From NCBI GenBank assembly GCA_018831195.1, contig JAHJDP010000072.1:1-64000 (forward strand): a stretch of 64,000 bases of DNA, written 5' to 3'. Of the stretch, positions 1,508 to 63,990 are shown piece after piece (the stretch's first letter is position 1; the number at the start of each line of letters is the position of its first letter). The notes beneath the pieces are model-generated. The model was not told where the DNA came from. It searched no databases and saw nothing but the letters and a program-made list of their open reading frames with translations. The position numbers were made by a program, and so were the translations under genes. The DNA comes from Candidatus Eisenbacteria bacterium (lineage in GTDB: Bacteria > Eisenbacteria > RBG-16-71-46 > CAIMUX01 > JAHJDP01).

Positions 1508-2872
1508 ATGACCCGGATCCTCATCATATGTCTCGGCCTCGCGTTTATGTCGTCATCGGTGGGGGCCTACGATGTCTATTATGGCAGTTTTCATTCCCAT
1601 ACGGCCTATTCCGACGGTATCGGGACTGTCGCACAGGCCTATACCTGTGCGAGGGACACGGCCCATATTGATGTCCTAGCCATCACCGACCATACCCATA
1701 TGCTCACCGCGACAGAGTGGAATAACACGATGGCGGCGGCGGAAGCCTTCACGGAGGACGGCGTCTTTGTCGCCTTGTGCGCTCAGGAGTTTGGAAACCT
1801 GAACGATTTCGGGCATATCGGGATCCTCTTTACACCGGTCCGCAATCCTAATTCGACGTCCAACCTGCCGGCAACGTATAATTTTATCCAATCCTATAAC
1901 GGCGTCGGAAATTTTTGTCATCCCAGTTCCAGTTATGGTTCCTGGTTTGACAATTTCTACTATTACTCATCTTACGGCGACGCCATGCACAGCCTCGAAA
2001 TCCGCAACGGCCTCCGGGTCGACGATTATGAGCCGGAATTCATTTATGCTCTGAACAAGGGCTGGAAACTCGGACCGTTTGCGAATCAGGATAATCATGA
2101 GGGCGAATGGGGGATGCAGCAAAATCCTAATGACGGCGGCGCCATCTATCTTACAGGGACCTTGTTGGACAACCTGACTTACGATGATGTTTATAACGCC
2201 CTGCGAAACCGGCACTTTTTCGCGATGGAAGAGGATCCTCCCGGCGACCGGATCAAAATGTGGTATTGGGTCAACGATTCGATCATGGGATCGGTCATTG
2301 AAAGTGAAGGTCCCGTCGATTTTACGGCCCATGTCGAAGCAGCGAATGGAACGAGTCTCTTCAACCGGATTGACCTCTTCGAAGATGGTGTCATCATCAA
2401 TTCACAAGTGCTTATCGGAACAACGATCGACTACGCACACTCGGTAACGATCGCGAATGAGGAAAGCCATTATTATTTCATCCGCGCCCGGCAGGTTGAT
2501 GGCGACTATGCCTGGAGCAGCCCGGTTTGGGTTCAGCATACGCCCTCATCCGGCCTTGCGGATCCCCTTGAGGGGGTGAACGCGCATGGCGTCGAACTTC
2601 TGCCGAACACGCCGAATCCCTTTTCCCCGCGGACTCAGATCCGCTATGAAAGTGACGGAGTCATGGCGGGCCCGATCGGCATGACCATCCATGATGTAAC
2701 GGGTCGGCGGGTCCGTGATTTGGGGCTTGTAGCCGCCACAACAGGGGTTCATCGTGTGAATTGGGATGGACGTGATGACGGTGGCAGGGATCTGCCGTCG
2801 GGAATCTATCTGGTGCGTCTCGAAACGGCCCATCATCTTGTCCGCAGCCAGAGGATCCTGCTGACACGGTGA
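1508..2872 (+). CDS. secreted PHP-domain metallohydrolase with FlgD-like C-terminal domain
   Basis: The 454-residue product has a signal peptide (about residues 1-20, cleaved after SVGA), then a PHP/CehA-type metal-dependent hydrolase domain. Metal ligands are visible in SFHSHTAYSDG near residue 26, AITDHTH near 60, CAQEFGNLNDFGH near 95 and NQDNHEGEWG near 200. The last 90 residues (LPNTPNPFSPRTQIRYE to SGIYLVRLE) form a FlgD-like Ig fold of the kind found at the C-termini of secreted proteins in Eisenbacteria and FCB-related phyla, probably for surface sorting. The start is ATG 1508, behind GGAGG with 9-base spacing; an upstream GTG at 1475 is less likely. The substrate is unknown; family members cleave phosphoesters. 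Confidence 0.8.
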   Translation: MTRILIICLGLAFMSSSVGAYDVYYGSFHSHTAYSDGIGTVAQAYTCARDTAHIDVLAITDHTHMLTATEWNNTMAAAEAFTEDGVFVALCAQEFGNLNDFGHIGILFTPVRNPNSTSNLPATYNFIQSYNGVGNFCHPSSSYGSWFDNFYYYSSYGDAMHSLEIRNGLRVDDYEPEFIYALNKGWKLGPFANQDNHEGEWGMQQNPNDGGAIYLTGTLLDNLTYDDVYNALRNRHFFAMEEDPPGDRIKMWYWVNDSIMGSVIESEGPVDFTAHVEAANGTSLFNRIDLFEDGVIINSQVLIGTTIDYAHSVTIANEESHYYFIRARQVDGDYAWSSPVWVQHTPSSGLADPLEGVNAHGVELLPNTPNPFSPRTQIRYESDGVMAGPIGMTIHDVTGRRVRDLGLVAATTGVHRVNWDGRDDGGRDLPSGIYLVRLETAHHLVRSQRILLTR

Positions 2873-2921
2873 TCGATGAGGCTGAAGCCCCCACAGGGAA
2901 GAGGGATAAGGGCTCGGAATC

Positions 2922-3479
2922 ATGAATTGGCTTGATGTCGTTCTATCCATCATTTTCATACTCTCCATCATTGTGAGTGTTCGGCAGGGATTGATCAAAG
3001 AGGCGACAAGTCTGATCGGTCTGGTCCTCGCTCTCCTCATCGCTTCAAAGCTCTTCCAGTCGGTCGCGGAGTCTCTTGCCGATAAAATTGGGAGCGGACC
3101 GCTCCTCGCCATGGCCGCCTTTATCCTCGTCTTCCTCATTGTCTATCTGGGAGTCCTGCTTCTGGGCCATGTGCTCTCCAAGTCGCTGAAGATACTAAAA
3201 ATGCAATGGCTGGACCGGCTTCTGGGCTCCGTTTTTGGCGCGGCCCGCGGCATCCTTCTCCTCGTCTTCATTTTGATTACCCTTCTTCTCATTCTGCCTT
3301 CATCCCATCCCAGCCCGATTCTTCAATCCTCTTTCGCGTACAGTTACGCGGAGCCTGTTATCCGGCTGGTGGGACATCTCCTGCCCTCATCGGTTGGAGA
3401 TGAGATTGAAGACCGGGATACTTTTCATCGCAGTGGGATGAAGCCCCTACAAAACCCAATCCGGACAATCTCGATCTAG
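2922..3479 (+). CDS. cvpA: CvpA family membrane protein
   Basis: The 185-residue protein begins NWLDVVLSIIFILSIIVSVRQG, the typical CvpA opening, and has four hydrophobic segments (about residues 5-22, 25-45, 63-87 and 104-125) with a polar tail. CvpA proteins are inner-membrane proteins first linked to colicin V production and later to envelope homeostasis; the molecular role is unsettled. It lies 49 bases after the PHP gene and may share its transcript. Length fits the family. Confidence 0.8.
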   Translation: MNWLDVVLSIIFILSIIVSVRQGLIKEATSLIGLVLALLIASKLFQSVAESLADKIGSGPLLAMAAFILVFLIVYLGVLLLGHVLSKSLKILKMQWLDRLLGSVFGAARGILLLVFILITLLLILPSSHPSPILQSSFAYSYAEPVIRLVGHLLPSSVGDEIEDRDTFHRSGMKPLQNPIRTISI

Positions 3480-3638
3480 TCCCGCGCCCGGCGACAAAAC
3501 AAAACTTCAGAGGGCAACAACAACTTGGGGATCGAGAAAAACAACGAGAGGATTTCATCGAACGCTCTTTCATGATTTAATAAGAATTCCACGAAGTTAT
3601 CCTGGTGCAACAGAGGAGACAGGGGAGGAGATCGAGCA

Positions 3639-4166
3639 TTGGCGTTCCAACTCTTCAAGACTCAGATCGAGTTTATACATGGCGCCTATACCGAGCCACC
3701 GGCCGACGGATTGATCATTCCGGCCAATGATCACCTTTGGATGGGGACCGGACCGGCCCGCCTGATTAAAGAGGCCGGGGGGGAGGAGATCGAGAGGGAG
3801 GCGGTCAAAGAAGGTCCGGTGGGAATGGGAGATGTGGTGGTGACGGCGGCGGGGAAACTGCCCTTTAAGCATATTTTGCACGCCGCTCTCATGAGTCAGG
3901 ATCTTCATATCAGCGCCGAGACATTAGGTCTCGCTCTACAAAACGCCATCCAACGGGCGGCGAAACTGAAGCTGAAGCATATCAATTTCGCCGTTCCCCT
4001 CGAGACCGGCGATCGCCCTTTGCGGCCGGATATCCTCGCGGAAATGATCCGCGTTCTTTTCCGCGTGCTCGAGGAGATCGAAGGGATCAAGACCCTGCGT
4101 CTTGTGGTGGCCAATGAGAGCAGCAAAAAGATTATGCACGATGCTTTCTTGCATGCGCTCTATTAG
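3639..4166 (+). CDS. macro domain protein (ADP-ribose binding)
   Basis: The 175-residue single-domain protein fits the macro fold that binds or removes ADP-ribose. The adenine/ribose-binding region is visible as DGLIIPANDHLWMGTGPARLIKEAGG (long motif, residues about 24-49; key residues N, GTG and IKEAGG). A GMGDVVVTAAGKLPFKHILHA segment and a late VANESSKKIMHDAFLHAL helix follow. The start is TTG 3639: AGGGGAGGAG sits 8 bases upstream and no ATG or GTG fits better. It stands alone between CvpA and a convergent Yip1 gene, so its substrate (protein, RNA or O-acetyl-ADP-ribose) cannot be inferred. Confidence 0.85.
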   Translation: MAFQLFKTQIEFIHGAYTEPPADGLIIPANDHLWMGTGPARLIKEAGGEEIEREAVKEGPVGMGDVVVTAAGKLPFKHILHAALMSQDLHISAETLGLALQNAIQRAAKLKLKHINFAVPLETGDRPLRPDILAEMIRVLFRVLEEIEGIKTLRLVVANESSKKIMHDAFLHALY

Positions 4167-4175
4167 AGAAATTTG

Positions 4176-4952
4176 TTAAAGTCCTATAAAGGCGCCCCAC
4201 TGGGTTCCTGTGACCAGGAATGCAACAGCGATCCGGATGAGAGCCCAGATAGCCCAAATGGTAACGGCGATACCCAAACCCTGGCCGGGCCGGATTTTCG
4301 CAACCAAGGCCAGGCCGATCCCCACGACAATCACATACCAGACGTCAAAAATGTCAAAGACATTGAGCGCATTACGCAGCTTTGATCCGATTTCCCCAAC
4401 GGGGAGCAAGGCCAAACTCGTGTAAACATCGAGTGACTGCTGATGCAATTTCATCGGCAGGGTCAGGATAGACTTCGGGACATAAACAAGACTCGCCAGA
4501 CCGACGGTGGATACGATTCCCCAAAAACGGGCCGATCCGCCGCAAACGAAATTCGTTCCCAGCCAGTAGAGCAAGGCCGGCAAGGCGAGGCCGAGGCAGA
4601 AGAAACCCACGAGGCCGCCCACAAAACCCAATATCTCGGAGACCACACCGCCATCAGACTGTCCCTCGATCCCCTCCAAGGCCTTTTCCCGCATTTCTTG
4701 AGACATGTCAGTTTGGCTGATCCGTTCTCTCATCCGCTCGACCGTCAGGGGGCGGAGCATATGCCCCTCAAACGTCTGAAGGGCCGCCAGAAGGATCAGA
4801 GGGAGAATCCAGGCGGTGGCTGGGAGACGCCCCGCAAAGGCGGCGCTTGGTGAAACGAAAACATTGATGATTCGCTGGAAAAAACCGGGGGTCTCCCCGG
4901 AAGATTCCATTCTTGCTGGCGTTGGGGGCGGGTTCAGTGTGTTATCTTCCAT
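4176..4952 (-). CDS. Yip1-domain integral membrane protein
   Basis: The 258-residue minus-strand protein opens with a proline-rich cytoplasmic stretch, then GFFQRIINVFVSPSAAFAG, the amphipathic entry typical of bacterial Yip1 proteins. About five hydrophobic helices follow, from AWILPLILLAAL to the C-terminus. Bacterial members are uncharacterised membrane proteins. ATG 4952 is chosen because GAGGAG lies 5 bases upstream; an upstream in-frame ATG at 4988 lacks one. Its 3' end converges with the macro-domain gene, leaving only 9 bases between stops. Confidence 0.7.
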   Translation of the reverse strand: MEDNTLNPPPTPARMESSGETPGFFQRIINVFVSPSAAFAGRLPATAWILPLILLAALQTFEGHMLRPLTVERMRERISQTDMSQEMREKALEGIEGQSDGGVVSEILGFVGGLVGFFCLGLALPALLYWLGTNFVCGGSARFWGIVSTVGLASLVYVPKSILTLPMKLHQQSLDVYTSLALLPVGEIGSKLRNALNVFDIFDVWYVIVVGIGLALVAKIRPGQGLGIAVTIWAIWALIRIAVAFLVTGTQWGAFIGL

Positions 4953-5322
4953 AGTGACTCCTCGTGGAGAAGTTGCCTTGAGCTTCAATAGGACCTGGCC
5001 TGCATGCTGAAGGCCATTTGTGACTCTGTCAAGAACGTGCGGAGGGGCAAGATTTGGTTTAGATGTACCTGGTTTTGAGCTTGTAATAGACTGACTGGTA
5101 GACAGATATCACAATTCGACCGGTGAATTTCATTCGGGAACAGGCGACAGAAGTGATGATTTCGGTTTTCCAAGCCCCTTGAGACCCCCACGGATATCCG
5201 AAATCTTTCGAACTCACTTCATTTTAAGCCGCTTAACTCCTGAAGATGGCTCTTCCAATGGGCCGATACTATATGTAACGTCCCTCACCGGTCTCTGTAG
5301 GGACATCGGAGGTTCAGGCATC
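4953..5322. other. divergent intergenic region before the exopolysaccharide operon
   Basis: About 370 bases separate the minus-strand Yip1 gene from the plus-strand polysaccharide operon, so promoters for both should lie here. I see no gene, no strong hairpin and no clean sigma-54 or sigma-70 site. It is more AT-rich than the neighbouring genes around 5040-5110 and 5200-5280, which is compatible with promoters. Confidence 0.4.
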
Positions 5323-7761
5323 TTGAATATGAAACGGGTCTTGCTTACCGCCATTGATGCGGCACTGATAAATTTGGCTGTTTTGTGCGCTCTTTGGCTG
5401 CGCTTTGACGGCCGGGTTCCGCCGAACTATCTCCATACTTTCCTCATTGTGACCCCGTTTCATACCACCCTCGTTCTCTTGATCCTGCACATCTGGAAAG
5501 TGAATCGATCTTTATGGCGCTATGCTGGAATCCCTACGGCGATTTCCCTTCTACAAGCGCTGACCCTGGAACACTTCGTCGCTTTCATCGCCAACGGCGT
5601 TTTGACCCCGCATCCCTTTCCCCGGTCGGTCATCATCCTCTCCTGGATCCTCTCCGTCGGGCTTTTCGCGGGCAGCCGCTTTTTTTGGAAGCTCTACCGT
5701 GGCGGGATTCTCATTCCTGCGCGCCGGAAGGGACGTAGGATCCTGATTGCCGGGGCGGGGGATATCGGCGCCGTCGTCGCCCGCGAGCTGCAGCGGGTTG
5801 AGATGGGCAACGGTTACCCGGTGGGTTTCGCCGATGATGATCCTCATAAAAAGGGCCGGATGATCGAGAATCTTGAAGTGCTGGGGACAACTTTTGACAT
5901 ACCCCGGCTCATCCGCGAAAAGCAGATCGATGAAGTCATTGTTGCGGCTCCCTCGGCGCCGAGCCGCTTGATGCGCCAGATCTTTGAATATGGGTTGAAA
6001 GCCGGTATCTGGGTTCGAACCGTTCCCTCCCTTGCTAATTTCATCGAGGGCAAAGGGGCTCTGCGCCAGGTCCGGGAGGTCTCCATTGAAGACCTTTTAG
6101 GGCGGGATCCCGTCCAGATTGATCAAGAGGGGATCGAGTCGTTTCTCTCGAATAAGAGAATTCTCGTCACCGGCGCCGGCGGCTCAATCGGATCGGAGTT
6201 GTGCCGGCAAATCTTCAGATTCCGGCCCTCGCGCCTCATCGCGCTGGATCATGATGAAAACAGGCTGACCTATCTTGGGATTGAGCTGACCGCGCAGGAT
6301 CCGACACTGGATCTTCTTCTAGTCGTCGGCGATATCCGCGATGAGAAGGGAATGGATGCCCTCACCGAGCAGCATCGCCCGCACGTTATCTTTCATGCCG
6401 CGGCTCACAAACATGTCCCGCTCCTCGAAGACAGGCCTCGCGAAGCGATCCGCAATAACATTCAAGGGACGCTCAATGTCGCCCGGGCGGCTCAAAAATA
6501 TGAAGCCGAGGCGATGGTCCTCATATCCACCGACAAGGCGGTCGACCCGACCAATGTCATGGGCGCCTCCAAACGCGGGTGTGAGTTGATTATTCAGGCG
6601 CTCGGGCAAAACAGTAAAACCGTTCTCACCGCTGTCCGATTCGGAAATGTAATGGGCAGCCAGGGAAGCGTCATTCCGATTTTCAGGCGTCAATTAGCCA
6701 AGGGGGGGCCGCTCACCGTCACGCATCCCCTGGCGCGGCGATACTTTATGACGGTTCCCGAAGCGGCGCAACTTGTTCTCCAAGCCGCCTCCTTTGGCCG
6801 GTCTGGAGATATCTTCATCCTGGATATGGGCGAGCAGGTTCGCATCCTCGATGTGGCCCGGCAGCTTATTCAATTGTCAGGTCTGGAGCCGGATGTCGAT
6901 ATCCCGATCGTCTTCACCGGGCTGAGACCGGGCGAGAAACTGGAAGAGGAACTCCTCACCGACGGTGAGCGGGTTCGCACGACCCGCCACGCAAAAGTCT
7001 TCCGCTGCAACTTGGAATCGACCGACCCGCAGAAGACGCTCGCAAGGGTTCAGGATCTTATCGCCAAAGCTGAAAAGATGTCGACCGTCGAGTTGAAGGG
7101 GCTGTTGAATCAGCTGGTGCCGGAGTATCAACCAAACGCTGTGCTGGCTCCCTTGCCGGACAAAGAGCCCGAGAAAAGGGGAGAAAGCGAACCGGGTGCG
7201 TCCCCGCAGGATTCCGATCTCAAACCGTCGCTGAGTGGGATCCGAAACGACCAGGCGCCACCATGGAGCGACCGGATTCTCGCGGGATTGGGATTGATGA
7301 CACTCGGACCTCCATTGATCATCATGTTGAGTATGCGCAGGCTGTTGGGTCCCGAGGATGTTCTCCTGATCCGTGAAGTCAGGGTGGGAGCGGACCGCAG
7401 GGGCGAAGAGCGCCGGCGTCCAACGGGGTGGGCTCCTATCGATCGACGCTACCAGGATCGGCGCCATCGGAATCTGGGTGGGCGCCCCTATTCCGCTTTT
7501 CGCATCCGTTTCAGGCCGGGGCATGGACCACGATGGATAAGACCCTTGGACCGGTGGATGAGATCGGTGAAGGCCGGTGCGTTGCCCGGCTTGTTAAATG
7601 TTCTTCGGGGGCATGCGACTCTGGCGGATTTGTATCCCGGTCGGCCGATGCCTCATGATATTGAAATTCATGATTATAAAGGGAACGGTGATGGTGACCC
7701 TGCGGAGCATTCCTCTCATGGGCCGGCAATCCCCGAATCCCAGCGGAGAAGGCTGACATGA
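5323..7761 (+). CDS. FlaA1/PglF-type nucleotide-sugar 4,6-dehydratase fused to a degenerate sugar-transferase domain
   Basis: The ~812-residue protein has four N-terminal membrane helices, a CoA-binding-like Rossmann domain (RILIAGAGDIGAVVAREL near 140) and a catalytic SDR domain with VTGAGGSIGSELCRQI near 282 and STDKAVDPTNVMGASKR near 402. The Met in place of the SDR Tyr is normal for the FlaA1/WbpM/PglF group, which makes UDP-2-acetamido-4-keto-6-deoxy sugars from UDP-GlcNAc. From about residue 640 there is an unusual extension resembling a bacterial sugar transferase but with its catalytic region eroded. TTG 5323 has GGAGG 10 bases upstream; ATG 5329 is the alternative. This is the first gene of the operon and overlaps the next by ATGA. 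Confidence 0.85.
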   Translation: MNMKRVLLTAIDAALINLAVLCALWLRFDGRVPPNYLHTFLIVTPFHTTLVLLILHIWKVNRSLWRYAGIPTAISLLQALTLEHFVAFIANGVLTPHPFPRSVIILSWILSVGLFAGSRFFWKLYRGGILIPARRKGRRILIAGAGDIGAVVARELQRVEMGNGYPVGFADDDPHKKGRMIENLEVLGTTFDIPRLIREKQIDEVIVAAPSAPSRLMRQIFEYGLKAGIWVRTVPSLANFIEGKGALRQVREVSIEDLLGRDPVQIDQEGIESFLSNKRILVTGAGGSIGSELCRQIFRFRPSRLIALDHDENRLTYLGIELTAQDPTLDLLLVVGDIRDEKGMDALTEQHRPHVIFHAAAHKHVPLLEDRPREAIRNNIQGTLNVARAAQKYEAEAMVLISTDKAVDPTNVMGASKRGCELIIQALGQNSKTVLTAVRFGNVMGSQGSVIPIFRRQLAKGGPLTVTHPLARRYFMTVPEAAQLVLQAASFGRSGDIFILDMGEQVRILDVARQLIQLSGLEPDVDIPIVFTGLRPGEKLEEELLTDGERVRTTRHAKVFRCNLESTDPQKTLARVQDLIAKAEKMSTVELKGLLNQLVPEYQPNAVLAPLPDKEPEKRGESEPGASPQDSDLKPSLSGIRNDQAPPWSDRILAGLGLMTLGPPLIIMLSMRRLLGPEDVLLIREVRVGADRRGEERRRPTGWAPIDRRYQDRRHRNLGGRPYSAFRIRFRPGHGPRWIRPLDRWMRSVKAGALPGLLNVLRGHATLADLYPGRPMPHDIEIHDYKGNGDGDPAEHSSHGPAIPESQRRRLT

Positions 7762-10992: not shown

Positions 10993-11852
10993 AGTCGGAT
11001 GGCGCCGTTTCAACGTCTGACAAATCTCCGGCGGTCTTTACATCCGCCGCAAGAGTATTCAAGGCGCTTTTTGTCATGGCTTCCGTGGCGATTCTCTTCT
11101 CAGGGTTGTATAAGACACTTTGGGTCATCTGGCGAAACAATCCGAATTATTCGCATGGTATTCTCATCCCGGTTATCAGCCTGATCCTCGTTTTAGGACG
11201 AAGAAAAAGTCTCCTAACCCTTCCCGTAACCCCGTCCGCCTGGGGTTTGCCCATCATCGCCGGCGGCGTCCTTATGCACCTCATGGGTATTCGCGGCGAG
11301 ATCACACTGATTCAAGGGTATGCTTTTCTCGCCGTCTTGGTGGGTCTGGTGCTCCATTTCGCCGGATGGCGCTGGCTGCGGCGCTTGGCTTTCCCGATGG
11401 CTTTCCTCATCTTCATGCTGCCCGGTCCGCCTTTTCTCATGAACCAGATTAGTTTTGAATTGAAATCATTCGCTTCAAAAGTCAGCGGAGGTGTTCTAGG
11501 ACATTTGGGAATCCCCGTGTGGCGGCAGGGGGCGATCCTCTATCTGCCGGCGGGTCCGCTGGCCATTGAAAATCCCTGCAGCGGCCTGCGATCGCTTTTG
11601 GCGCTGCTGGCCCTGGGCGCTCTCATGGCGCGGGCCGGCTCCGTTCCTCCTTGGAAGCGGATGCTTCTGCTTCTGGCGGCCTGGCCTGTCGCCATATTGG
11701 CCAACATCATTCGTGTTGTTTCGTTGGGACTCGTCGCTACCTTCCATTCCCTGGAATTTGCGGTGGGAACGGCCCATGATATTTCAGGGTACCTGCTGTT
11801 CGCCCTGGCGCTTGGAATCCTGGAAGGGTTGAGGAGGATTCTGCGATGGTGA
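10989..11852 (+). CDS. xrt: exosortase
   Basis: The 287-residue, multi-spanning membrane protein begins its core with WRNNPNYSHGILIPVISL, the classic exosortase start. The three catalytic residues are present in order: Cys197 in ENPCSGLRSL, Arg242 in NIIRVVSLG and His263 in TAHDISGY. Exosortases cleave C-terminal sorting tags such as PEP-CTERM and are nearly always linked to exopolysaccharide genes, as here. The subclass cannot be fixed by eye. It overlaps the kinase gene by 4 bases and the EpsI gene by 7, so it is translationally coupled in this operon. No obvious tagged substrate is encoded in the window. Confidence 0.9.
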   Translation: MKSDGAVSTSDKSPAVFTSAARVFKALFVMASVAILFSGLYKTLWVIWRNNPNYSHGILIPVISLILVLGRRKSLLTLPVTPSAWGLPIIAGGVLMHLMGIRGEITLIQGYAFLAVLVGLVLHFAGWRWLRRLAFPMAFLIFMLPGPPFLMNQISFELKSFASKVSGGVLGHLGIPVWRQGAILYLPAGPLAIENPCSGLRSLLALLALGALMARAGSVPPWKRMLLLLAAWPVAILANIIRVVSLGLVATFHSLEFAVGTAHDISGYLLFALALGILEGLRRILRW

Positions 11853-12502
11853 ATCATCCCAGAATGAATCCGGCAAAAGCCGCCCGCGGACTCTGGTGGA
11901 CGCCGCTCATCTTCTTGATTCCAGGATGTTTGTACATTCTTATGCTGCCGCCGCAGGCGGCGGCCATAAGCAGTCTCTCTGGTTTCCCGGCAACCTTCCT
12001 TTCGATGCCGTCGGTCGAGGTGCCGGCCACACAGATGGTCCTCGATGATCTCAGACCCAGCGATATCCTGCTGCGGCGTTATACGCGTCCGGACGGCGAG
12101 CCCCTTTGGCTGGTCATTATTTTTTTCCAGAATGCCCGATGGGGGGCTCACGATCCCCGGCTTTGTTACATTTCACAGGGGTACAATCTTACAAATGAGA
12201 AGATTGAAGAGATCCCTTTAGCCGCGAATGAAAACCTCAAGGTTAATCTCTTTCAGGCCAGCCGCGGTGATAACCAGCGATCTGTTCTTTCATGGTGGTA
12301 TATACCCGGGGCGGGAACGACGACCGATCAAAATACTTTTCGAAAACTTCTTATGATCGAGGGAATGCGTCATAACAGCACCTATGGCGCATTCGTCAGG
12401 ATTTCCACAACCACGGCCATGGATGGAAGTGAAATGGAACTCCTTAGAGCCTTTTCAGCCGGAGTGGCGGCTCAATTGCCGTTACTGATCCAGAAGGGGT
12501 GA
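11846..12502 (+). CDS. epsI: exosortase-associated EpsI family protein
   Basis: The 218-residue protein has an N-terminal membrane anchor (about 18-38) and an EpsI core: LWLVIIFFQNARWGAHDPRLCYISQGYN (long motif near residues 91-118; key residues H, D, P, C, Y and GY) and a SWWYIPGAGTTTD stretch. EpsI-type proteins accompany exosortases, sometimes as a fusion, and are thought to act with them in polysaccharide or protein export; biochemical function is unknown. Overlap with the exosortase gene and matching family history make this a confident pair. Confidence 0.85.
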   Translation: MVNHPRMNPAKAARGLWWTPLIFLIPGCLYILMLPPQAAAISSLSGFPATFLSMPSVEVPATQMVLDDLRPSDILLRRYTRPDGEPLWLVIIFFQNARWGAHDPRLCYISQGYNLTNEKIEEIPLAANENLKVNLFQASRGDNQRSVLSWWYIPGAGTTTDQNTFRKLLMIEGMRHNSTYGAFVRISTTTAMDGSEMELLRAFSAGVAAQLPLLIQKG

Positions 12503-59144: not shown

Positions 59145-61583
59145 ATGATCCGGTCTGGGATACGAATTGGAGCTACGATTCTCTTGGTTCTTGCTTGGAC
59201 ACCATCCCAATCTCTTGTCCAAGAAGGGCCTCACTTGATCGATTTGAGTCATCTAGCCTCTCAGCTTCCCTACGAAGCGATGCGGGATCCCGAGCTTAGC
59301 CTGTTGGATAACAACACTCGCAACCGGGGCCAAATTGTCGGCGATCTTGACGGTGATGGCCTCGACGAGATCATAGTAGGTGTGGAGATGGGCCTGCTCG
59401 CTTGTAAATATAACCATTCCCAGCTTTTCGTGTTATGGCAGCAGAACCTACCACAGAGCTTCCTTCAAGAGGGTCCACCCATCGGCCTGGGATGCACATC
59501 AGATATTGATGGCGATGGCGCGGATGAAATATTTCTGACTGCTACTCTTCCCGACAAGAATATGTCGCGGCTCTGGGGTTTCGATACGGCACGGAATCAG
59601 ATCATCTGCGATATCAATCTGCCGGTCGGGCCCGATCGCAATGGGGACGGGATATGGGATGGCTACTACCTAGCCGCCGGAACACTAACCAACATCTGCG
59701 AAGATGGGCATGCAGCGGTTCTTCTACAGTGCATCGTCCACTATGATGCCTATCCCAGAGGGTTGATTGCCATCGACCCAAGAGACGGCACAGAGATCTG
59801 GCGTTTCGACATGGGGCCCAATCCCATTCAGAATGCACTTTGGATCGGTAATTTAGATGAGGACGGCTATGATGAAGTCATTTGCACCAGCACCTCCCCC
59901 GCTAATCTGAAGGGAGATCTAATCAATAGTACCAGCGATGACAAATCCTGGTTGTTCGCGATCGATCACGATGGAGAGCTGATCTGGCGGCAGCCTTTGG
60001 GGGAATATTTCTTCGCCTCACAACTCATTGTTGCTGATCTTGATGGCGATGGTGTCTCTGAAATCGCCACTGCAACCAGACACCATGGGGCCGGCGATTT
60101 CGAGGATCAGCTGACCGTACACGCGTTGAGAACAGGTGAACCTCTATCACAAATTAGCGTTACATCGAGCTATCTAGGATTGGAGTTTCTTCCCTCCACT
60201 GAGGAGATGGGTGGATACTTGTTCACTGGTTCTCATGAAAATCATATCTCACGTTATCGTTTCGATGGCCATGATCTGATCTGCGATCGAATTGCTCAAC
60301 TGGATTCAGGGGCCAATATCATGGCAAGCGGACAATGCTTGCCTTCGACAGGAATGGAACTCATCGCCTCTACGGGAGCCGGGGATATACTCATCCTGGA
60401 TGAGAATCTGTCAGCCTTGGCGAGTTATCCGTTCGAAATCCCTATAGCCGGTGTTCTGAAGGGAACTATTTGGCAACCCCCGAGAAGCTCATCTAGATTT
60501 ATCACCTATACGTCACAGGGGAGACTCGCTCTTTCGTTTCAACCGGCTCATATTCGAAGCCTCGGATGGCTGTGGATGTTATTGGGCTTGGCGGGCGCGA
60601 TAAACACTGCCGCAATTTTTTGGTGGAGAAGGAATCGCCAAAAGAGCCTCCAACCTGAACTTTTGCCAAAGTCAATTGATCGCGAAGCATTACGGCGCGT
60701 TTTGAACACAGCCGAATTGTCAGGACATGGCCAACTCAAGGCGATTGGGGGGCTGAAACGTGTTGTCTGGCAACTTGGGAGTGCCCTCGATGAGGAAAGC
60801 GACGTAATCAAAATCGAAGATGGGCTTAAACATAGCTTGACAGACTATCGAGCGTCCATTCATGACACCTTAGAGGGGTTCCTCTCAAATACACATAATT
60901 CCGGTTATCAATTGGATCTGGTTCGGCGTACTCAACCAGCACTTGCCAAAGTCTGGTCGATTATTCAGGAAATTGAAGGTGAGGAACTTCCCAGGCATAC
61001 AGCAAAAGATATCTATGACCGGCTAGAGTCACCCACCGCCATCGCCGTCGATGGCATCAACCATTTAGTAATCCAATTAGTGGAATTCTTCACTGTTGAT
61101 GCAGGTGAAATGGTCACCTGCCTGATCGGCCTTCAAGCACATGACCTAGCCGAAGCGGGTATCACGGTTGAGATCCAGACGCCATCAAATGGCAAAGCAC
61201 CGCTTTGTATTATTGAAGCGAGTGAACTGCGTTTTATCCTTGAGAACCTTTTGGGAAACGCAATTGAAGCGATGTGTGAGAGTATTAAGCGCACATTAAC
61301 CGTCTCGTTTCACGAATTTAACGAAACGCTCTCGATTAGAGTGTCCGACAGCGGTATAGGTGTTCCGCCGGAAAAAAGAGAAAGTATCTTCGAAGTTGGA
61401 ATATCGGCCAAATCAAACGGAGGCCTAGGCCTTCCGCAATCCCGAGTGCTCCTTCGTGAATGGAAAGGTGAATTGAATTTGGAATACAGCGAAGTGGGGT
61501 CAGGGAGCAGTTTCTTGCTCAGGATTCCCAAACCCAGAGCTGGAGGCAATGATGACCGAACTCCCATTAGTTCTAATCATTGA
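59145..61583 (+). CDS. membrane histidine kinase with FG-GAP/VCBS propeller-like sensor
   Basis: The 812-residue kinase has a short signal/anchor, then a large extracytoplasmic region with repeated calcium-loop motifs DLDGDGLDEI (67-76), DIDGDGADEI (120-129), DRNGDGIWDG (164-173), NLDEDGYDEV (236-245) and DLDGDGVSEI (298-307), typical of FG-GAP/VCBS beta-propellers. A membrane helix at about 473-493 leads to the cytoplasmic kinase: N box ENLLGNAIEA (700-709), DSGIGV (735-740) and GGLGL (759-763). No canonical AHEIKNP H box is seen; His528 in SGHGQLKAIGGLKRV is the best acceptor candidate. It overlaps the regulator gene. Codon usage looks less GC-rich than upstream genes. Confidence 0.85.
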   Translation: MIRSGIRIGATILLVLAWTPSQSLVQEGPHLIDLSHLASQLPYEAMRDPELSLLDNNTRNRGQIVGDLDGDGLDEIIVGVEMGLLACKYNHSQLFVLWQQNLPQSFLQEGPPIGLGCTSDIDGDGADEIFLTATLPDKNMSRLWGFDTARNQIICDINLPVGPDRNGDGIWDGYYLAAGTLTNICEDGHAAVLLQCIVHYDAYPRGLIAIDPRDGTEIWRFDMGPNPIQNALWIGNLDEDGYDEVICTSTSPANLKGDLINSTSDDKSWLFAIDHDGELIWRQPLGEYFFASQLIVADLDGDGVSEIATATRHHGAGDFEDQLTVHALRTGEPLSQISVTSSYLGLEFLPSTEEMGGYLFTGSHENHISRYRFDGHDLICDRIAQLDSGANIMASGQCLPSTGMELIASTGAGDILILDENLSALASYPFEIPIAGVLKGTIWQPPRSSSRFITYTSQGRLALSFQPAHIRSLGWLWMLLGLAGAINTAAIFWWRRNRQKSLQPELLPKSIDREALRRVLNTAELSGHGQLKAIGGLKRVVWQLGSALDEESDVIKIEDGLKHSLTDYRASIHDTLEGFLSNTHNSGYQLDLVRRTQPALAKVWSIIQEIEGEELPRHTAKDIYDRLESPTAIAVDGINHLVIQLVEFFTVDAGEMVTCLIGLQAHDLAEAGITVEIQTPSNGKAPLCIIEASELRFILENLLGNAIEAMCESIKRTLTVSFHEFNETLSIRVSDSGIGVPPEKRESIFEVGISAKSNGGLGLPQSRVLLREWKGELNLEYSEVGSGSSFLLRIPKPRAGGNDDRTPISSNH

Positions 61584-62934
61584 TGATGACCACATATTCT
61601 GTGGTGATATCGCCGAGAAATTAGCCTCGAATTTCCGGACAATGAGTTCATTCAACAGTTTGGATGGCTTGGCGGCGATCAGGCACTATACCCCCGAAGC
61701 AATTCTTCTGGATATCCGTTTGGATGAAGAGGCTAATGGCTTCGATGTTCTCGCAAAAATCCATCAGATGGAAGCCCCAGCACCTGTGATAATGCTCACA
61801 GAGGACACGAATGTAGAGACAATTGTTCAATCGATCAAACGGGGCGCCTATAATTATATAACAAAACCGCCTAACTCAAAGGTGCTGATAGCGATTCTGT
61901 CCAAGGCCCTTGAAGAATCCGTCCGACAAAGAGGGAGATGGTCCAGGGAACATGAGATCCGATCTCTTAGGGGCGAATTCATAGTCAAAGACGAGAGGAT
62001 GAGTGCTGTCCTGGATTTGGTCAAAAAGATCGCCCCCAAAGATACTACCGTCTTAATCACAGGAGAGTCCGGAACTGGCAAGGAACTCATAGCAAGGCTA
62101 ATCCATCAACTGAGCCGTCGCAGCGAGGGACCTTTTATTGAATTTAACTGCGGGGGTTCTACCAGTGAGTTGATTGAAGACGAATTATTCGGTCATGAGA
62201 AGGGGGCCTTTACAGGTGCAGATAGACGATTCAGAGGCTGTTTTGAACGAGCAAACGGAGGAACCCTTTTTCTTGACGAGGTTGGCAACAGTTCGCCCGA
62301 ACTCCAGATGAAGCTTTTGAGGGTAATTGAGAATAAGTCCTTTCGAAGAATCGGTGGCGAAGTATCTATCCGTTCAGATCTACGCATCATTGCAGCAACA
62401 AATAAAATTCCGATAGAGGAGATCAAAGCAAAAAGATTGCGTGAAGACTTATACTACCGATTGTGTGGCATTGAGGTGTTTATACCGCCCCTCAGAGAGA
62501 GGCTGGGTGACATTTTGCCAATTGCAGAACATTACCTCGCTCAATCTTCCAATGGAGAGATACTGGGATTTACTCCAGCAGCTCAAGAGTACCTACAATC
62601 CCAACCATGGGACGGTAACGTCAGAGAACTTCGCAACGCAATTGAAAGAGCTTTGGTGCACTGCAAGGGTCGGTCTCTAGATATACATGATTTCCTGAGC
62701 AATCCTTGCCGTCCCATGTCACCCCCGCCATATAGAATAGCGAAAGAAGCAAATACTTTAGCATTCCTGCATGATTATGTAAGTCAATGCCTGAGGGTAA
62801 CAAAGGGCATCAAGACCCGAGCGGCCTCACTGGCTGATGTGACACCAGCACAATTTCAGCTCCTATATAAGAAATCAGGAGTCGATGTTTCTCTTTTTCG
62901 CCCATCCCCCGAGGAAGAGAGTGGCCAGGACTGA
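61552..62934 (+). CDS. sigma-54-dependent response regulator
   Basis: The ~460-residue regulator has a receiver domain with phospho-Asp54 (AILLDIRLDEE), an AAA+ domain with Walker A GESGTGKE (171-178), a canonical GAFTGA loop (218-223) and LFLDEVGNSS. The C-terminal region has only a divergent helix-turn-helix (KTRAASLADVTPAQFQLLYK) instead of a clear Fis domain. ATG 61552 lies 5 bases after GGAGG. It overlaps the kinase gene and sits just before a sigma-54 promoter, so the two-component pair probably drives 63265. Confidence 0.88.
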   Translation: MTELPLVLIIDDDHIFCGDIAEKLASNFRTMSSFNSLDGLAAIRHYTPEAILLDIRLDEEANGFDVLAKIHQMEAPAPVIMLTEDTNVETIVQSIKRGAYNYITKPPNSKVLIAILSKALEESVRQRGRWSREHEIRSLRGEFIVKDERMSAVLDLVKKIAPKDTTVLITGESGTGKELIARLIHQLSRRSEGPFIEFNCGGSTSELIEDELFGHEKGAFTGADRRFRGCFERANGGTLFLDEVGNSSPELQMKLLRVIENKSFRRIGGEVSIRSDLRIIAATNKIPIEEIKAKRLREDLYYRLCGIEVFIPPLRERLGDILPIAEHYLAQSSNGEILGFTPAAQEYLQSQPWDGNVRELRNAIERALVHCKGRSLDIHDFLSNPCRPMSPPPYRIAKEANTLAFLHDYVSQCLRVTKGIKTRAASLADVTPAQFQLLYKKSGVDVSLFRPSPEEESGQD

Positions 62935-62957
62935 AGAATTCCCTCAGATACCGTATT

Positions 62958-62973
62958 ATATCATAATTGATAT
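62958..62973. promoter_or_regulatory. imperfect inverted repeat in the sigma-54 upstream region
   Basis: ATATCA and TGATAT (62958-62963 and 62968-62973) flank TAAT. It lies 24 bases after the regulator stop, within the upstream region of the sigma-54 promoter. Could be an extra activator-binding site or chance in AT-rich DNA. Confidence 0.3.
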
Positions 62974-63041
62974 GGTGCTTATCATAAACAATCACATAGG
63001 TTTCTGGATTTTCAGTCCAAGCGCCATATCTTTTTTGATGT

Positions 63042-63055
63042 GATTCGTTCGAATC
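63042..63055. promoter_or_regulatory. palindromic upstream activating sequence candidate
   Basis: GATTCG-TT-CGAATC is a perfect inverted repeat centred about 103 bases before the -24 element at 63151, a usual distance for NtrC-type enhancer sites. A further CGAAT follows at about 63057. The neighbouring regulator at 61552 is the obvious candidate to bind it. Confidence 0.5.
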
Positions 63056-63150
63056 TCCGAATATTGATCCTCAAGTAAGAGCACATCTATCTTTATTAAT
63101 ACCATAGTAATACAGGTTTGTCACCTCCCTTCCAGACCCCTCCCCCATTC

Positions 63151-63166
63151 TGGTACGGGGCTTGCA
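63151..63166 (+). promoter_or_regulatory. sigma-54 (-24/-12) promoter
   Basis: TGGTACG (63151-63157), four bases, TTGCA (63162-63166): this matches the sigma-54 consensus TGGCACG-N4-TTGCW with one change (C to T) and correct spacing. It lies about 100 bases before ATG 63265 and downstream of a sigma-54 activator gene. Confidence 0.87.
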
Positions 63167-63264
63167 TTTGTTTGAGCCAAGGACACCCAGGGGAGGTGTC
63201 GGAGATGGGAAAGGTTGGTCTGTCGCAGGAGATAGGGCCAGCCTCAGCATAAGTGGGAGAAACC

Positions 63265-63990
63265 ATGAAACAAAAAGTGCTATGTCTTGGAATCATTCTA
63301 ATCCTGGCGGGACCTGCGTCAGCTGCATGGCTTGAATTTTATAACGAGGATTTCAGCAATGAACCATACTTTGAGATCTGCGGTGAGTATACACCTGTCG
63401 AGGGTGAGTATTTCCGCTGGAATGAGGTTGATGAATATTACGAAGTCCGAATTCAGGATACTCAAGAATTCACTCCAAAGTACGCCTGCTCGCCCACATT
63501 TGACGTAGCTACCCAGGATTCGTTCCGCGTAAGACTCGACATCAAAGTTGTCGAGCATCAAACCGGATTACCAATCGGTGTGCGATGTGTTACAGCGGAA
63601 GTCCCCGAGGGCAATGGAATGACAATGGTCTATGAAGGCGCCCACAATCAGCAATTCGACGTTGCCGATTGGCACGGAATTGAGTATGGAACGCCAACAA
63701 CCATCCAGCTGGGAGTCTGGTACCACTTTGATATGTTTTATCGAATGGGTACAGCTACTGTAGATATTTCGATTACGGATCGTGAAAGTGGCGTGAGTTA
63801 TTTGGAAATTGCCGCCGAACCGTTTAATCCCGATGCGTTCGACACAATCGCAATTGGATACAATACTCTGATTCTTGAAACATCCGGATTTGCTCAAATT
63901 CATGTCGACAACATCATTGTCGATTCTTGTGTAGGCATCACGCCCAACAAGTCGAGTACTTGGGGTGTGGTCAAATCATTGTACAAGTAA
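63265..63990 (+). CDS. secreted beta-sandwich protein under sigma-54 control
   Basis: The ~241-residue protein has a signal peptide (cleaved after ASAA, near 21), then a beta-rich domain resembling a LamG/concanavalin-like fold (WLEFYNEDFSNEPYF start, TIQLGVWYHFDMFYRMGTAT, GFAQIHVDNIIVDSC near the end). No catalytic motif is seen. The C-terminus reads SSTWGVVKSLYK, a W-G-x-x-K-x-x-Y-K tail that I associate with secreted proteins of Eisenbacteria-like phyla. GGGAGAAACC precedes ATG 63265. It is the likely target of the two-component system upstream. Confidence 0.75.
   Translation: MKQKVLCLGIILILAGPASAAWLEFYNEDFSNEPYFEICGEYTPVEGEYFRWNEVDEYYEVRIQDTQEFTPKYACSPTFDVATQDSFRVRLDIKVVEHQTGLPIGVRCVTAEVPEGNGMTMVYEGAHNQQFDVADWHGIEYGTPTTIQLGVWYHFDMFYRMGTATVDISITDRESGVSYLEIAAEPFNPDAFDTIAIGYNTLILETSGFAQIHVDNIIVDSCVGITPNKSSTWGVVKSLYK

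Follow-up and report, generated by a model that had tools for sequence, protein, structure and literature searches.

A predicted sigma-54 switch joining a sensor kinase, its neighbouring activator and a secreted gene with a recurrent C-terminal tag in an Eisenbacteria genome

At the right end of the window (the whole stretch of 64,000 nucleotides analysed here, positions 1-64000 of contig C72), a kinase gene is followed by an activator gene, a gap and a gene for a secreted protein. Does this gene order reflect a local circuit, in which the kinase and activator control the secreted gene through a sigma-54 promoter in the gap? The source genome (G000) comprises 5.24 Mb in 123 contigs. Contig C72 extends past the window and ends at 65788, and no known RNA element was detected at its 3' end at gathering threshold. 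From the kinase to the secreted gene, the coordinates confirm the prediction that all the parts lie within 5 kb. The features are as follows.

59145-61583, + strand: sensor histidine kinase, 812 aa, with signal sequence, FG-GAP beta-propeller repeats and HATPase_c.
61549-62934, + strand: NtrC-type enhancer-binding response regulator, 461 aa, with REC, AAA+, AAA lid and Fis-type HTH.
63042-63055, + strand: inverted repeat GATTCG-TT-CGAATC, candidate upstream activating sequence (UAS), with core TTCGTTCGAAT.
63151-63166, + strand: predicted sigma-54 -24/-12 promoter TGGTACGGGGCTTGCA (TGGTACG-N4-TTGCA).
63182-63200, + strand: inverted repeat GACACC-N7-GGTGTC in the predicted 5' leader, just downstream of the predicted start.
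63265-63990, + strand: secreted protein, 241 aa, starting at ATG 63265, first putative target.
63961-63987, + strand: C-terminal tag WGVVKSLYK-stop, an instance of the genome-wide C-terminal motif STWGxxKSxY[KR].
About C72:64199-65026, beyond the window: second secreted gene, Laminin_G_3 (LamG).
C72:64997-65022 (L001:2998-3023): the same tag on the LamG gene.

The kinase gene overlaps the activator gene by 35 nt. Its product has one transmembrane segment, at about residues 473-492, and a divergent DHp domain that is not recognised by Pfam. Just after the transmembrane segment, an HG block contains one histidine (His528 here, in GHG), which is kept in the six kinases compared below and would be the most plausible site of phosphorylation. 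As in the cognate kinase of an NtrC-family circuit, HATPase_c and a conserved histidine are thus encoded by a gene overlapping that of the activator.

In the activator, Asp55 and Lys106 of the REC domain are kept, as are Walker A (residue 172), Walker B and the GAFTGA motif (residue 219) of the AAA+ domain. The protein therefore has the REC, GAFTGA-bearing AAA+ and C-terminal HTH domains that define the NtrC family, with the HTH itself below the Pfam cut-off. Indeed, this Fis-type HTH is degenerate (HTH_8, 12.0 bits vs a cut-off of 22), and it aligns with related orthologs that pass HTH_8 at the same place. Against the best-scoring named NCBIfam equivalogs, the activator did not reach the cut-off. 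It had been placed at 61552-62934; the activator is present, but its ORF starts at 61549, 61552 being the next ATG. The motif contacting sigma-54 is replaced by GAFTDA in two related activators (L025:11612-13009 and L108:3845-5275); the loop reads GSYTGA in G009 and GSFTGA in C78, and so varies within one subfamily. The source genome contains a single rpoN (C18:103815) and about 30 sigma-54 activator genes.

The gap between the activator and the secreted gene spans about 318-330 bp and holds the inverted repeat and the -24/-12 site. This site, TGGTACGGGGCTTGCA, displays the correct GG-N10-GC spacing and a single mismatch to TGGCACGN4TTGCW, in exact agreement with the position and mismatch count first reported. 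It is the sole match in the 64 kb window, even allowing one mismatch, and its probability in shuffled versions of the gap is about 0.001. Over the 5.24 Mb genome, TGGYACGN4TTGCW has four exact matches, whereas its reversed control has one. Besides the site in the gap, these matches include one immediately after another activator gene (C119) and one within a flagellar/activator region (C85). Neither a sigma-70-like promoter nor a terminator was found on the + strand from the activator to the target. From the -24/-12 site, transcription would start near 63177, and the repeat at 63182-63200 could be a leader hairpin.

The arrangement was also compared among six modules, each consisting of an FG-GAP kinase beside an activator: C72, C88 and C78 in the source genome, and G009, G006 and G003. 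These modules were picked by kinase and not by promoter, with the window's own module as the starting point. Their activators are mutually 36-57% identical. In all six, a sense-strand -24/-12-like site lies right behind the activator gene, with one mismatch to TGGCACGN4TTGCW in C72 and G003, two in C88 and C78, and three in G009 and G006. The combined P over the six gaps is 4e-7 (dinucleotide shuffles per gap, Fisher's method), the sites of G009 and G006 being individually weak (shuffle P 0.13-0.14). On the opposite strand, the six gaps contained worse sites or none. Of 20 activator genes of the source genome scored in this way, five are followed by a gap containing a site with two mismatches or fewer; these are the three modules, the C119 case and one whose site lies before flgB. 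A chance origin of the C72 promoter is unlikely, given the four exact genomic matches and the sites behind the activator in the five related modules.

What lies downstream varies between modules. The gene behind the promoter-like site in G006 also encodes a signal-peptide protein. The C88 gene encodes a small receiver-like protein without a Pfam hit, C78 has a membrane protein and a receiver, and G003 a PAS/GAF protein. As these last three differ, a secreted target is not general in the family. In the G009 gap, on the same strand, a LamG remnant matches the second secreted gene of C72 with 50% identity over 36 aa (tblastn E 8e-6). Since this gap shares both TTCGTTCGAAT and the LamG fragment with the window's module, kinase, activator, UAS core and LamG gene probably adjoined in a common ancestor.

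Altogether, the original prediction of a kinase/activator pair beside a sigma-54 promoter and a secreted gene is supported, with an arrangement that recurs in six modules and an rpoN gene in the genome. We consider it likely, on sequence grounds, that the promoter is served by the neighbouring pair as a local two-component switch.

The repeat at 63042-63055, centred about 128 nt before the predicted start, had been described as a perfect palindrome. Its 6+6 bp arms are present, but the central TT is not symmetrical. Inverted repeats with 6-bp arms and spacers of 0-10 nt number three in the gap, vs about one expected in a shuffled gap (0.07 expected for spacer-2 repeats). As about one such repeat is expected per gap, the palindrome is not significant alone. 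Its core TTCGTTCGAAT, however, is the longest word common to the C72 gap and that of its nearest ortholog, G009, and the probability of finding any 11-mer of the palindrome in a shuffled G009 gap is about 0.003. The palindrome by itself stands at chance level, and its proposed enhancer role gains moderate support from the core kept in the ortholog; we lean towards the palindrome being the activator site. Genome-wide, G000 carries two copies of TTCGTTCGAAT and G009 six. No other copy stands ahead of both a clear sigma-54 site and a gene for a secreted protein, so that these copies were rejected as further targets. Three G009 copies (L116:1819, L117:2837 and L119:1117) have the flanks AGGxCTTxG...CCCTA in common and resemble a short dispersed repeat.

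The activator might instead drive the -24/-12 promoter without the palindrome, using another site in the gap or, since its HTH is degenerate, acting from solution. The chance-level count of such repeats, the sub-threshold HTH_8 score and a further 6-bp inverted repeat in the gap, at 62958-62973, all speak for this reading. It is nevertheless the less likely one: the core 11-mer is kept behind an orthologous activator, a position near -128 suits a UAS, and the HTH aligns with orthologs that pass HTH_8. It is considerably less probable that the promoter is real but served by another activator, with the neighbouring pair controlling genes elsewhere. With about 30 activator genes, cross-regulation is possible; against it, each of the six modules has the site immediately after its activator gene, and the LamG synteny extends to G009. 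Least probable of all, a chance -24/-12 match, with the secreted gene read from an undetected promoter or, as the lack of a + strand terminator would allow, by read-through from the activator gene, fits poorly with the four exact matches per genome, the shuffle statistics for the gap and the six modules, and the lack of a sigma-70-like site in the gap.

In the switch that we favour, the periplasmic FG-GAP propeller of the kinase would sense some envelope or extracellular signal. The kinase would then autophosphorylate, probably on His528, and pass the phosphate to Asp55 of the activator. The activated AAA+ oligomer would bind its upstream site, probably the 63042-63055 repeat, loop to the sigma-54 holoenzyme at 63151-63166 and open the promoter. 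The transcript, starting near 63177, would cover 63265-63990 and probably also the LamG gene. Both products would be exported by Sec. Because they would share this route and do carry the same C-terminal tag, a common envelope or surface destination is likely. In this switch the sensor would direct expression, whereas it had been proposed to direct secretion.

The gene at 63265 is preceded by GGGAG, and its product has a strong N-terminal hydrophobic segment, a Sec signal that bears out its description as a secreted protein. Its assignment as a surface beta-sandwich protein found no support, with no confident family (DUF5979 fell below cut-off) and a single-sequence AlphaFold model of pLDDT 30. 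A PDB sequence search returned nothing for this product. No paralog was found in the source genome, and no ortholog in 46 class relatives, where only two weak matches reached the C-terminal end. The LamG gene that follows has no -24/-12 site of its own and is, for this reason, probably co-transcribed with the 63265 gene; the target is best read as a putative two-gene secreted operon. It had been suggested that more targets may lie beyond 64000. The LamG gene with the same tag does follow, but other tagged genes lack sigma-54 promoters.

Apart from their ending, STWGxxKSxY[KR], the two secreted proteins are not convincingly similar; both finish in S-T-W-G-x-[IV]-K-S-x-Y-[KR]. This tag was searched for at the DNA level as WGx[hydrophobic]Kxx Y followed by a basic or polar residue. 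The source genome yielded 25 sites, vs none in the reversed control. A stop codon lies no more than two residues from each of the 25, and a signal-like N-terminus is present in nearly all complete tagged genes. Several copies were detected in most class genomes, and 5 to 63 in each of eight genomes outside the class, where controls in relatives gave at most one per strand. Of 25 matches retrieved from genomes with multiple copies, 23 have the stop no more than one residue away. Conservation extends to the stretch preceding the searched pattern (PTP[TA]xx[ST][ST]), giving a full tag of about 17 residues, PTP[TA]xx[ST][ST]WGx[IV]Kx[IL]Y[RK]-stop, without a hydrophobic helix. At L038:13648-17641, behind genes resembling groES/groEL, four related secreted proteins are encoded in tandem, each ending in a TTWGxIK tag; this seems to be a local expansion. 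In other secreted proteins of these genomes, the ending is instead a longer FlgD/T9SS-like tail, GxYFYRL... (L118:559-2280 and 2772-5741; L026:1-948 and 11373-12479; L025:8238-8936); two classes of C-terminal ending therefore coexist.

Short homology at the extreme C-terminus of unrelated Sec-exported proteins characterises PEP-CTERM/exosortase, T9SS CTD, LPXTG and GlyGly-CTERM signals. The tag resembles these in being a short C-terminal homology on otherwise unrelated Sec-exported proteins and differs from them in lacking a hydrophobic helix and a matching model. Indeed, no Pfam or NCBIfam model, known CTERM models included, matched the tag in 12 tagged proteins. No description of the tag strings was found in the literature, subscription papers being mostly outside the search, so that an earlier description is possible. 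The position of the tag and its association with Sec signals suggest, tentatively and at slightly less than an even chance, a sorting signal not yet described. With the same reserve, it might be a sorting or anchoring signal read in several phyla by a putative dedicated export or surface-attachment machine, to which the sigma-54 circuit would be one signal-dependent entry.

The closest functional counterpart is PrsK/PrsR, proposed to act with RpoN on PEP-CTERM genes via an upstream motif and a -24/-12 site (PMC1569441); RpoN dependence was shown for one such gene, pepA of Aquincola (PMC9850573). The window shares with it a tandem membrane kinase and NtrC-like activator, and a candidate upstream motif with a -24/-12 site before secreted proteins bearing a C-terminal tag. 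However, the window's proteins miss the cut-offs of PrsR (TIGR02915, 309.7 vs 502.6 bits) and PrsK (TIGR02916, 36.4 vs 300 bits), and the tag has neither a PEP motif nor a hydrophobic segment. A further difference is that a sigma-54 site with at most two mismatches precedes a single one of the 25 tagged genes, that at 63265, which indicates a local circuit and not a regulon. A PEP-CTERM-like regulon was accordingly rejected: without sigma-54 promoters on the other tagged genes, there is no wide tag regulon. Since the cut-offs are missed and the tag differs, the circuit would work like PrsK/PrsR-RpoN while standing outside that family, as a member of the broad NtrC-type class. With NtrC, AtoC and ZraR it shares the REC-AAA+(GAFTGA)-HTH architecture, a partner kinase and the UAS-promoter layout, the UAS here being a candidate. 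It differs from them in the FG-GAP propeller sensor and Pfam-unrecognised DHp of the kinase, and in the degenerate HTH of the activator.

The circuit offers, in compact form, a sensor paired with what would be its own envelope target, and the comparison of six modules provides testable promoters for the FG-GAP kinase family. The tag matters more than the circuit. Should it prove to be a sorting signal, it would define a pathway of protein localisation in lineages mostly seen as fragmented drafts, and the regulated 63265 gene would offer a way to study the tag under one switch.
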